29,615 nucleotides of DNA from a virus. Position 1 is the first letter of the stretch. Each line of letters opens with the position of its first letter. The stretch is taken from IMG/VR virus record IMGVR_UViG_3300033145_000608, positions 1-29,615 of that record; one strand, 5' to 3'. Both the position numbers and the translations under genes were made by a program. Positions 7,084 through 10,892 of the stretch are shown here, in pieces. Below the pieces are notes generated by a model. That model saw only the letters and a list, made by a program, of their open reading frames with translations. It was not told where the DNA came from and made no database searches.

Positions 7084-7608
7084 TTATGTTGCTAAAATAT
7101 AACCGGTGAGGACTTCATCCGCCTCGGTAAGTAACTCAAAATAATCCGGGGTTAACCCGTCATCCTCGCCGTATAGCGTTTCTTCCACTAATATTTGAAG
7201 TACGCTGGTATCGGTCGATTTTACCGTCAGCGGAACATAGCCGATTTCGCCGCCTTTAAATTGCAGATCCCAATTCTTTTCAACAGTGCAATTGCTCAGG
7301 AAGAAATGCTTGTCAGCGCTGCTTGACATCTTCACGCTGAACCGTACATCCTGTCTGTCAATCAGGTCCATGACGCCGAGTCGGTCAGCCGGTCGCAATA
7401 CCACGCCCTCTATCACCGCCTTGATCTCTACAGTCGCTCCAACGTCGATCTTCTGATATGTTTCCTCCGAGCCACTGTGGATCACATCAAGAATATGCGG
7501 ATCAACCTTAAAATTGAGCCCTTCCTTTGCCAGGTTGTAGGTGGTCCCGACAAACAGATTGCCGACACCGGCAATCTCAATCTGCTTAGCGTGCAGCCAT
7601 TCAGACAT
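7084..7608 (-). CDS. tail tube-like protein, copy 1
   Basis: A 174-residue paralogue of the next gene downstream, sharing the PHILDVI..SEE, IDVGA.VEIKAV and FKGGE...P.T segments in the same order. It is a tail-tube candidate from its position before the chaperone and tape measure. It carries an extra C-terminal ~25 residues (ETLYGEDDGLTPDYFELLTE) absent from copy 2. Its start overlaps the end of the upstream 103-residue gene by 8 bases. Tandem tube-like genes may make a mixed tube, or one may cap it (inference). Confidence 0.75.
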   Translation of the reverse strand: MSEWLHAKQIEIAGVGNLFVGTTYNLAKEGLNFKVDPHILDVIHSGSEETYQKIDVGATVEIKAVIEGVVLRPADRLGVMDLIDRQDVRFSVKMSSSADKHFFLSNCTVEKNWDLQFKGGEIGYVPLTVKSTDTSVLQILVEETLYGEDDGLTPDYFELLTEADEVLTGYILAT

Positions 7609-7912
7609 TCAAAACCTCATGCGCTTTAGTAATCGCGGCGTCGGCAAAGGCGTCATAGTCTTTCCATTCTGTGGACAATTTTGACATCCGCCCCATCTTG
7701 AATTCATCATTAGCGCTGTATTTCGTGCGAATAATCGCCTCTACAATCGCCTCTATAGTCTTCTCCGGAACCCAAACCTGGTCATATTCATACCAGGTTT
7801 CCATTTCGCCGGATTCATTGACCACCTCGACGGTGCGCTCATTGTAATTCAACATCCAGCCTTTTTTGTGAGGCTGGAACTGTGTTTGCTGATTTGGCGT
7901 TTTAATAGTCAT
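7601..7912 (-). CDS. hypothetical phage protein between DGR and tail genes
   Basis: A 103-residue protein with an AGGTG site upstream of ATG 7912. No family is assigned with confidence. The C-terminal half (IIRTKYSANDEFKMGRM, then a Tyr/Trp helix ending KAHEVL) resembles small tail-fibre-associated proteins of the DUF4376 kind, a weak pattern match only. It lies 7 bp after the DGR small gene and overlaps the tail tube gene, so it belongs to the tail transcript. Confidence 0.6.
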   Translation of the reverse strand: MTIKTPNQQTQFQPHKKGWMLNYNERTVEVVNESGEMETWYEYDQVWVPEKTIEAIVEAIIRTKYSANDEFKMGRMSKLSTEWKDYDAFADAAITKAHEVLNV

Positions 7913-7919
7913 GTATCAC

Positions 7920-8210
7920 CTATGTTAATGAATAATATCGGTTAATTTTCCGTATCGTTGCCAGAAATGGCAGCTCGTGCTCATACTTTTCCATCTGATC
8001 AATAAGCACGTCGCTTCCGGTAAATATCACATATTTCTTTTCGCTGATCTCTATCTGTAATGTGAGATATTTTCCACTTTCATTTTTACTGTAACGGCTG
8101 TCTTTGATTGAATATGCCAATATCGCGACTTCCTTGTTTAGCACATCGTCAATGCGCATCTTATCACCGTCCAGTACTTTCTCTTTTGAAAAATCCGAAT
8201 ATCGCTTCAT
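7920..8210 (-). CDS. small DGR-linked protein, possible OB-fold nucleic-acid binder
   Basis: A 96-residue protein whose ATG overlaps the reverse transcriptase stop (ATGA), so translation is probably coupled and the product made with the RT. The sequence suggests a compact beta barrel: VAILAYSIKDSRY, GKYLTLQIEISEKKYVIFTG, then VLIDQMEKYEHELPFLATIRK. This looks like an OB-fold single-strand binder (inference). No Avd-like helical gene is seen between target, template and RT, so this protein may be the accessory factor. It shares the opening residues MKRY with the RT, which may reflect a copied start region or chance. The function is unproven. Confidence 0.7.
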   Translation of the reverse strand: MKRYSDFSKEKVLDGDKMRIDDVLNKEVAILAYSIKDSRYSKNESGKYLTLQIEISEKKYVIFTGSDVLIDQMEKYEHELPFLATIRKINRYYSLT

Positions 8211-9259
8211 ACAATCCCTTGGAGCGGATTACGGCGGTACTTACATACCTGCTTAACGATCCAAAATAGATTATCATTGATATAAGCATTAAGCAGATTC
8301 CGGCAATTGGCGTATTTCATCCAGCCCCAATAACTCATCACGCTATTAACAATTTGGCTATATTTCATCTTTGACCAGTTGCGCTCAATGGATATCATTC
8401 TCGATTTAAACTTTGTCGCAATGCTTTTTCTAAGCAGCGTATATCCGTGAAAAAATCTGTATCCAAGAAAATCAATGCCGCGGCTGTCAACCGGAAATAC
8501 CTGCCAGTTATCCTTCAGGTTTATTTTTAATTCCTGTTTTAAATAAGTCTCAATTTGTTTTTGTAATTCGTGCAGAGCGGTTTTTGATTCATCCATAATC
8601 ACAATATCGTCACAATAGCGATAATAATAGCGGACTCGCTTCTGTTCTTTAATCCAATGATCCAGTTCCGATAGGTATAAATTTCCGAAATACTGACTTA
8701 GATAGTTGCCGATCGGCAATCCCTTTGTGCTATCTATTATCTCACTCAGTAGCCACAATAGATCCCGGTCTTTAATCTTTTTCCGAATTACACGCTTTAG
8801 GACCTTGTGATCAACCGACGGATAGAACTTCTTAATATCCATTTTAAAACAATATCGAGTCTTAACCTTATCCCGTAATGCTTTTTTAATCCGCCTTACT
8901 CCGTCGTGAATACCTCTGCTTTTTATGGAACTATATGTATCCCTGATCAATGTCGGAAACCAGATCGGCTCCACGACCTGCATAATGCAATGATGAATGA
9001 TACGATCTGGAAAGTAAGGAAGTTTGTATATTTCACGAATTTTCCCATTATCAGTCTTTTTGGAAAACACCTTATAAGGCGAATTTTCAAAGGTTTTGTT
9101 TTTTAACATATCATAAATCATTTGAAAATATTTCTCCGGATCAACATCAACCATCTTAACTTCCCTGTAGTGGGTTTTACCCTTCCGGGCGTTATAGTGT
9201 GCTTTCCGGATATTTTCCAGATCATAAATTTTGTTGAATAGATTTCCGTAGCGTTTCAT
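8207..9259 (-). CDS. DGR reverse transcriptase
   Basis: A 350-residue group II-like reverse transcriptase. Visible motifs are: motif 2-like IYKLPYFPDRIIHH (~77-90); motif A KMDIKKFYPSVDH with Asp141; motif B PIGNYLSQYFGN (182-193); the catalytic YCDD box at 215-218; and FLGYRF (264-269). The IGxxxSQ form of motif B, instead of QGxxxSP, is the signature of diversity-generating retroelement RTs. There is no maturase or endonuclease domain, and the length fits DGR RTs. The enzyme would copy the template repeat RNA with errors at adenines and pass the cDNA into the variable repeat. It lies 126 bp downstream of the template repeat on the same strand, and its stop overlaps the next gene. Confidence 0.97.
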   Translation of the reverse strand: MKRYGNLFNKIYDLENIRKAHYNARKGKTHYREVKMVDVDPEKYFQMIYDMLKNKTFENSPYKVFSKKTDNGKIREIYKLPYFPDRIIHHCIMQVVEPIWFPTLIRDTYSSIKSRGIHDGVRRIKKALRDKVKTRYCFKMDIKKFYPSVDHKVLKRVIRKKIKDRDLLWLLSEIIDSTKGLPIGNYLSQYFGNLYLSELDHWIKEQKRVRYYYRYCDDIVIMDESKTALHELQKQIETYLKQELKINLKDNWQVFPVDSRGIDFLGYRFFHGYTLLRKSIATKFKSRMISIERNWSKMKYSQIVNSVMSYWGWMKYANCRNLLNAYINDNLFWIVKQVCKYRRNPLQGIV

Positions 9260-9385
9260 TATTTCCTTGTTTGCTTATGTCACCTCTGGTTCTTCGATCC
9301 CGATTCATCAGGACTACCAAACCAAATGAGGCTCTGCTTTGTATTTTGCCAAGAGGCAGGGTCTCCATGCAGATCGTAATAATAA
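9260..9385 (-). ncRNA. probable TR RNA 3' part / spacer before RT
   Basis: A stretch with no credible gene between the template repeat and the RT start. In known DGRs the TR is transcribed with flanking sequence that the RT needs for priming, and the downstream flank toward RT is part of that RNA. The assignment here is from position only; no strong hairpin was identified. Confidence 0.4.
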
Positions 9386-9503
9386 GCATAGACGCGTGCC
9401 GATATTGGAATTGGCATTCGACGAATCGTTATTCGAATTCACGTAGAAAACGCCAGTTTTGCCACTGTTATTCGCATTACTGCCGACATGAACGACACGT
9501 TTT
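9386..9503 (-). repeat. DGR template repeat (TR)
   Basis: A 118-bp non-coding repeat between the target gene and the RT, at a constant offset of 163 bp from the variable repeat. Base-by-base comparison gives 99 identities and 19 mismatches. All 19 mismatches fall on plus-strand T of the TR, that is A in the transcribed sense: ten A-to-G, eight A-to-T and one A-to-C. The TR has 34 such adenines, so 15 are unchanged. Read in the target frame the TR has no stop and places AAT/AAC Asn codons at many variable sites, the usual DGR design. Confidence 0.97.
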
Positions 9504-9542: not shown

Positions 9543-10892
9543 TTACCGGCAAAGACGCGCGCCGACATCGGAAATGGCAACCGACGAATCGTTAAACGAA
9601 TTCACGCAGAAAACGCCAGCCTTGCCACCGCTAATCGCATTACCGCCGACAAGAACGACACGGTATCCGGAATTCGGACCCGTATCAAAACAGGTATAAT
9701 AATAATCACATACTTTTGTCGTTTCTGAACCAGCAGTAGCTTTCGGTAAGAATCCTAATTTCGTTGCTATTAATGCCGATATATATCCACTAACTTCAGC
9801 CAGCGTATCATTCGGAACTACGTCATGGTTAGTAATAGTGTCATCGGCAAAGTTAGCCGGATCATCGCACAGAAAAGCGTAAGAAGCGTAAGCATCCCCG
9901 CCGAGCGGATCATAATTGCGAATGTTAATACCATCCAGAAATTGCCATATATTGCCGAAAATATCTTCAATTCCTCGATATGATACATAGTCGCCTGAAT
10001 TACCACTTGTAGTACTCTGCCCGCCGCTGGCATTACCGTCACCATTAGACTTCCCGGTAGCGGCGATACAAGTTGCAAAATTCCATGAAGCAAATTTCGT
10101 ATTACCGGCGCTGATCATAGCCTGTATATTGAAGTCGGCATATTCGGTGATATACAATAATTGCACAGCGGCTTCGAGAGAATAATTCAATTGATGCCAT
10201 CCGGATCCACGCGCCTCAGCAGATGTACGGAAGGTCGCTCTCGTTTCATTCGTGATCGGCTTTTTCCCGCTGATAGAACTCAGCTTATCTCCGGCTGCAT
10301 ATTGAGTGCCGCCACCATCGCCGTCTATATAGGCAGACGCTGTAATGTCATATAAGACGCCCGGATAAGCTCCGAAATATCGATAATCATATTCGGTTGC
10401 GCCTTTTCTGAATGCGGGATGTAATTCAAATCCTGCCCGCTCCACAGGTGATACCCAATAGCGATGTTTGCTACCGTCCTTTTCGTATTTATACCAGAAC
10501 TTCGGAATCTCTACCATCACTTGCCCATCGGAACCATCCAGATTAGCAGGTGTAACGCCATCTTCTTTGTAGTTGCTGTTTCCCGGGGATAGATAATATT
10601 GTACCTCCCCTGCATCATTTACAACACAACGTTTCATATTAGCCTGAATAGGTAGTAAAATATCATCCAGTGTTTGGCTGCATGGAAACCCAGCCAGCGC
10701 TCCGATACGGGAATATGTATCTAACGATTCATCCCATTCTACACCATAAGCGCCCTGCTCATAGGAGCCAAGCAAAACATTCCCTATCCGCGATCTCTTG
10801 GTATTACCGCTGTCTTCGCTGTCAATTAAAACCACCTGGTCATAAGCGACCGGCAATGATTTCTCTGTCAATGCTGATAATTTCGTACCCAC
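9543..10892 (-). CDS. DGR variable protein, C-type-lectin/FGE-like, tail-tip adhesin
   Basis: A 449-residue target of the retroelement. The N-terminal ~40 residues (DQVVLIDSEDSGNTKRSRIG) match the start of phage fibre-like proteins. The C-terminal domain is of the formylglycine-generating-enzyme/C-type lectin type used by DGR targets, with SYRGIEDIFGNIWQFLDGI at 304-322. The variable repeat covers about residues 410-448. Fourteen residues differ from the template coding: 410, 414, 417, 420, 421, 422, 425, 429, 433, 438, 440, 442, 443 and 445, mostly template Asn/Thr/Ser. Two further changes (424, 447) are silent. The GTG start at 10892 overlaps the upstream stop (TAGTG), with GAGG 7 nt before it. 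It probably forms the receptor-binding tip. Confidence 0.95.
   Translation of the reverse strand: MGTKLSALTEKSLPVAYDQVVLIDSEDSGNTKRSRIGNVLLGSYEQGAYGVEWDESLDTYSRIGALAGFPCSQTLDDILLPIQANMKRCVVNDAGEVQYYLSPGNSNYKEDGVTPANLDGSDGQVMVEIPKFWYKYEKDGSKHRYWVSPVERAGFELHPAFRKGATEYDYRYFGAYPGVLYDITASAYIDGDGGGTQYAAGDKLSSISGKKPITNETRATFRTSAEARGSGWHQLNYSLEAAVQLLYITEYADFNIQAMISAGNTKFASWNFATCIAATGKSNGDGNASGGQSTTSGNSGDYVSYRGIEDIFGNIWQFLDGINIRNYDPLGGDAYASYAFLCDDPANFADDTITNHDVVPNDTLAEVSGYISALIATKLGFLPKATAGSETTKVCDYYYTCFDTGPNSGYRVVLVGGNAISGGKAGVFCVNSFNDSSVAISDVGARLCR
9549..9666 (-). repeat. DGR variable repeat (VR)
   Basis: A 118-bp partner of the TR occupying the last codons of the target gene. The 3' end in the coding sense is GC-rich (GGCGCGCGTCTTTGC, plus-strand 9549-9563), in the place of the initiation-of-mutagenic-homing element. 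Runs free of template adenines (for example 9608-9619) are identical to the TR. The repeat ends at 9666 on the 5' side, where non-adenine mismatches begin, and at 9549 on the 3' side, one codon before the stop. Confidence 0.96.

Follow-up and report, generated by a model that had tools for sequence, protein, structure and literature searches.

The small gene at 7920-8210 of the window (the whole 29,615-nucleotide virus record IMGVR_UViG_3300033145_000608) is likely to encode an OB-fold accessory subunit of a DGR, which acts with the reverse transcriptase (RT), most likely holds single-stranded nucleic acid and takes the place of the helical Avd protein. Homologues of this protein accompany DGR RTs in a wide range of viruses and prophages, are separated from Avd at the cassette level, and occur in some phages as a C-terminal domain of the RT itself.

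The DGR cassette and its small gene

The cassette runs from the target gene with its variable repeat (VR) through the template repeat (TR), a 126-nt spacer and the RT to the small gene. Its features are as follows:

9543-10892, minus strand: target gene, a tail protein (phrog_5302, E 5e-96; 449 aa from the listed GTG start)
9549-9666, minus strand: VR (core 9549-9662), from comparison with the TR
9386-9503, minus strand: TR (core 9386-9499)
9260-9385, minus strand: TR-RT spacer, a conserved structured RNA in close relatives
8207-9259, minus strand: DGR reverse transcriptase, 350 aa (phrog_1423, E 3.9e-120; GLPIGNYLSQ and YCDD motifs)
8207-8210, minus strand: ATGA overlap of the RT stop and the accessory-gene start, presumed translational coupling
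7920-8210, minus strand: putative OB-fold DGR accessory gene, 96 aa, with an ATG start at 8210

In the 114-nt core of the repeats, all 17 of 17 mismatches fall on TR adenines (30 A in 114; hypergeometric P 1.6e-12), as do 19 of 19 differences over the extended 118 nt. Because every mismatch sits on a TR adenine, the cassette is a genuine DGR, and one that is probably in use; in an RT tree, its RT groups with DGR RTs. The host phage is Mu-like, carrying MuA- and MuB-type transposition genes, a terminase, a portal and a head protease, and the 29.6-kb record is probably incomplete, a fragment. Compensatory base changes were found in two stems of the spacer when 9260-9385 was compared with the same region in L002-L007 and L045-L054. 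Such a folded, conserved spacer points to an RNA platform, which does not of itself imply contact with the OB protein.

The small ORF is a real gene, since its homologues (49-77% identity) keep the same start residue and length and pN is far below pS, at 0.15 versus 0.81 in the comparison with L002 and 0.035 versus 0.53 for a near pair. Selection against amino-acid change is strong, and the motifs LDG, FTGS, PF and KI..Y are strictly kept among relatives. The RT stop TGA occupies 8209-8207, and the four bases ATGA are common to the RT end and the start of the 96-aa ORF. The overlap described in the first-pass annotation is thus borne out by the coordinates, and translational coupling is presumed. 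Searches of Pfam, NCBIfam and PDB sequences gave zero matches to the protein, and its sole PHROGs match was phrog_19665 (E 0.0012), a family of unknown function.

An AlphaFold2 model based on 20 sequences (mean pLDDT 91.8) is a predicted beta barrel of five strands and one central helix in the order b1-b2-b3-a-b4-b5, in agreement with the beta-barrel-like character noticed earlier in the sequence. By VIA-align, the best solved-structure match was the RuvBL2 OB domain (Z 7.0), followed by Bartonella SSB (Z 6.2) and, at about Z 4-6, by further SSBs, LEF-3, Teb1, POT1 and RPA; values of Z up to 7 are modest and inform on the fold, not on function. Foldseek against the PDB alone gave no match below E 1e-3 (all E > 0.1), and the best BFVD matches were proteins named reverse transcriptase, the top one at a query TM of 0.76; VIA-align and BFVD were more telling here than Foldseek on the PDB. 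The protein is therefore predicted to have an OB-type fold, and, as expected in the first-pass annotation, structure prediction returned one, both in the topology and in the top structural matches, which are OB domains.

Homologues, RT fusions and the distribution of Avd

Scans for homologues were queried with the small protein alone, not with the RT. A DGR-type RT was present in 106 of the 109 loci having a recognisable OB ORF, and a second scan, seeded from divergent members and covering many of the same contigs, gave 73 of 76; relatives thus sit in DGR neighbourhoods, which was one of the checks proposed at the outset. Of the 76 OB loci whose flanks were long enough, 65 had TR/VR pairs, and TR adenines accounted for 1131 of the 1175 mismatches. 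The RT-less loci that were looked at appear to be contig ends or cassette remnants: L368 starts just 173 bases before the OB gene, i.e. at a contig end, and L037, L340 and L341 have a DGR-target-like gene immediately before it. A survey of genomes with phrog_1423 was of little use, most matches being longer, partial-profile and probably to other kinds of RT.

Members of the family were found in records titled Deltaproteobacteria, Nitrospirae, Omnitrophota, Spirochaetaceae, Alphaproteobacteria, Rickettsiales and Methanogenium, as well as in the archaeal viruses vir525 and ANMV-1. Bacteroides phage Versailles carries, two genes after its RT, an OB-like gene that has diverged very far (L118:5450-5830; E 3e-5 in a small search, against 0.007 in a wide one). 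At L030:7326-8255, L037:7671-8141 and L340:1652-3291, the DGR appears to have decayed, with the OB gene and a target-like gene still present and the RT truncated or gone. The first of these was considered as an RT-OB fusion and rejected, its RT fragment joined to OB being read as a deletion remnant.

Gene order was scored in 83 non-redundant OB loci. In 59, the OB gene overlaps the RT or comes directly after it; in 18, about one gene lies between them; and in 6, OB was scored before the RT, one of these (L036) being an overlapping-ORF effect. Two loci, L024 and L104, have the order VR-OB-TR-RT. Since the association survives such shuffling, it is hard to explain by hitch-hiking of some ordinary tail or replication gene of the phage that merely adjoins the RT. 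Neighbours of that kind do exist, the next gene (7601-7912) and its relatives seeming to be just such a tail neighbour, and a remote OB relative occurs outside DGRs; however, the association holds over very diverse viruses and prophages through three gene orders, homologues are almost never seen without a DGR, and RT fusions exist. Hitch-hiking is thus already largely refuted, and we regard it as very improbable.

The gene at 7601-7912 (minus strand) was itself considered as the true accessory and rejected: relatives of it very often follow these RTs, and it is read as a tail gene because Epona has, at the equivalent position, a small gene that is followed by XkdX in its tail module. Members of the family (about 85-160 aa, with a YEYD motif) lie immediately after the RT, or overlap it, in many DGR cassettes; similar genes, probably tail genes, come after the RT in L119-L191, above all in cassettes without OB. 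As for the remote OB relative, it forms the end of an unrelated 296-aa protein encoded on a genome contig (L304:841-1731), with no RT within the 3.2 kb examined; its presence there gives a hint that the DGR OB module may have been recruited from the general OB pool.

Two kinds of evidence go beyond the checks proposed in the first-pass annotation, namely natural RT-OB fusions and an OB gene in the avd position. In L177, a single 419-aa ORF encodes an RT followed by a domain matching the OB profile (E 2.8e-31; hhalign 99.8%, 43% identity). The profile also matches the domain at the C-terminal end of the 434-aa hankyphage RT (E 5e-11; hhalign 94%, E 8.6e-8), and BT-TP2 is a weaker fusion case (E 6e-4). 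Hankyphage RTs served for structure prediction of the fusion: the C-terminal domain is predicted to have the same strand/helix order as the small protein, behind a low-confidence linker, and with a pTM of 0.69 no claim on docking is made. DGR activity has been reported for hankyphage (PMC12135933), in which a supposed Avd has been put forward on the basis of its charge and size (PMC6199706); no description of the RT C-terminal domain was found in these two papers. The RTs of zeta crAss-like phages, which reach up to 414 aa, differ at their C-termini, and these differences have been ascribed to the thumb (PMC12386605). Based on a Foldseek match of the small protein to the cr7_1 RT in BFVD and on the length of the extension, these variable C-termini are possibly OB domains; sequence comparison gave no support for an OB domain in the extension of the crAssphage LMMB RT (about 100 aa).

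By the PF22296 and phrog_3206 profiles, which do detect the BPP-1 Avd, no Avd was found in the 29.6-kb record, itself probably a fragment, either between target, TR and RT, where its absence had been noticed earlier, or elsewhere. The small protein gave no match to the Avd profile and no helical bundle in its model. At the cassette level, Avd was found in 0 of 95 viral OB loci, which answers the proposed check on whether the family co-occurs with RTs that lack Avd. Conversely, BPP-1-type loci, a sample drawn mostly from one query, had Avd in 61 of 67 and OB in 0 of 67. An Avd match occurred in 1 of 45 OB-DGR virus records. In this exception (G030), OB stands with one RT (L088) and Avd lies several kb off, upstream of a second RT of its own (L275); because Avd adjoins a separate RT, the phage carries one DGR of each kind. 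The pair L088 and L275 offers a natural side-by-side comparison of OB and Avd DGRs.

When 167 RT sequences were placed on a tree, those with Avd fell into a single group (support 79) and those with OB were scattered across the remainder; as little as one change suffices for the OB/Avd distribution. As the split tracks RT phylogeny, the exclusivity, complete in this sample, reflects few independent events. For 43 of the 78 RTs nearest to that of the window, both OB and Avd are missing from the DNA examined, which means that OB is not universally needed or that some accessories are unrecognised. These RTs include a well-supported clade of 21 (L149-L196 and Psychrobacillus phage Perkons, L115) that has neither throughout. 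The suggestion that the small protein is an Avd-independent accessory factor holds for the association, the predicted fold and the absence of Avd, whereas universal replacement of Avd is contradicted by the many related RTs with neither.

Proposed role of the OB protein

In the BPP-1 system, RT and Avd act on a structured spacer 3' of the TR, where cDNA is primed, and editing in the reconstituted system is nearly abolished when Avd is lost (PMC12875486). By analogy, we think that the OB protein may join the RT on the TR-spacer RNA or take up the cDNA. It would be made right after the RT by way of the overlapping start and would work together with it, here as a separate subunit and in certain other phages as a domain joined covalently to the RT C-terminus. 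Most likely it would grip single-stranded nucleic acid, be it nascent cDNA or the structured TR-spacer RNA, and this grip could enable the RT to prime and complete mutagenic cDNA synthesis, or could hand the cDNA to the target. In Avd-less DGRs, OB would thus fill the slot of the helical Avd of BPP-1-type DGRs. The analysis shows the gene, the DGR, their association, the predicted fold, the lack of Avd in these cassettes and the fusions, whereas contact with the RT, binding of single strands and the step served are what we infer.

OB folds also act as protein-binding modules, and the barrel might serve only protein-protein contact in a DGR-specific RT cofactor (for RT folding, stability or dimerisation), with no grip on nucleic acid. 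The fusions and the overlap point to partnership with the RT rather than to nucleic-acid binding, and the net charge of the family, weakly positive overall, is near neutral in several members and negative in some. Nevertheless, the nearest structural matches are largely domains of SSB, RPA, POT1, Teb1 and LEF-3, and the partner RT works on single-stranded RNA and cDNA, which makes a purely protein-binding role rather unlikely.

A similarly low probability is given to a post-synthesis, SSB-like role, in which OB would stay out of priming but would protect the mutagenised cDNA and bring it to the VR at replication forks. OB proteins commonly protect or deliver single strands, and many related RTs do without both OB and Avd. 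Moreover, BPP-1 editing is driven by DNA replication, and the incorporation of cDNA is incompletely understood (PMC12875486). Against this role, the covalent RT fusions and the OB gene in the avd position point to the RT complex itself.

A broader proposal, whose chances we consider evenly balanced, is that there are two biochemical types of DGR according to the RT partner, helical Avd or OB (separate or fused), with OB doing the job of Avd by means of an unrelated fold. Roughly one in four DGRs reportedly has no known accessory gene (PMC7290462), and a dedicated OB partner, free or RT-fused, would explain part of this gap; if the two-type proposal is true, the DGRs so explained would include those of gut hankyphages and possibly of crAss-like phages. 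This would also give a new reading of the hankyphage RT C-terminal extension, and perhaps of the way in which RT C-termini vary among crAss-like phages. OB would be a concrete second component for the engineering of Avd-less DGRs, and since an unrelated fold seems to substitute for Avd, it can be asked which features of Avd matter.

Comparison with known systems

No description of a link between an OB protein and DGRs, of the OB fold, of RT-OB fusion or of the swap into the avd position was found in the DGR literature searched. As described in PMC10053308, Wu et al. 2018 suggested one conserved DGR-associated protein family with no Pfam or CDD entry. On this description it resembles the OB protein and may be the same family, in which case the bare OB-DGR association may already have been noted. 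The HRDC and MSL proteins, named in PMC10053308 as alternative DGR-associated proteins, are comparable as accessories but are Pfam-assigned (PF00570 and PF01624), whereas the small protein has no Pfam match.

The single-strand binders SSB, RPA and POT1 resemble the small protein in predicted fold (Z about 4-6). They differ in that no sequence relationship to it was found in the Pfam, NCBIfam, PDB and PHROGs searches, and in that its family is dedicated to DGR cassettes, with binding only predicted. A closer relative is the C-terminal domain of the RT of hankyphage (Bacteroides phage p00), which is homologous by profile and by strand/helix order; it is fused to the RT, whereas the small protein is separate. 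Avd of Bordetella phage BPP-1 (PF22296, phrog_3206) is likewise a small cassette protein beside the RT. In BPP-1 the order is mtd/VR-avd-TR-brt, and in L024 and L104 OB occupies the same slot between VR and TR. In contrast to OB, which is predicted to be a beta barrel, Avd is a helical bundle; the OB gene usually comes after the RT and, in the sample, never shares a cassette with Avd.
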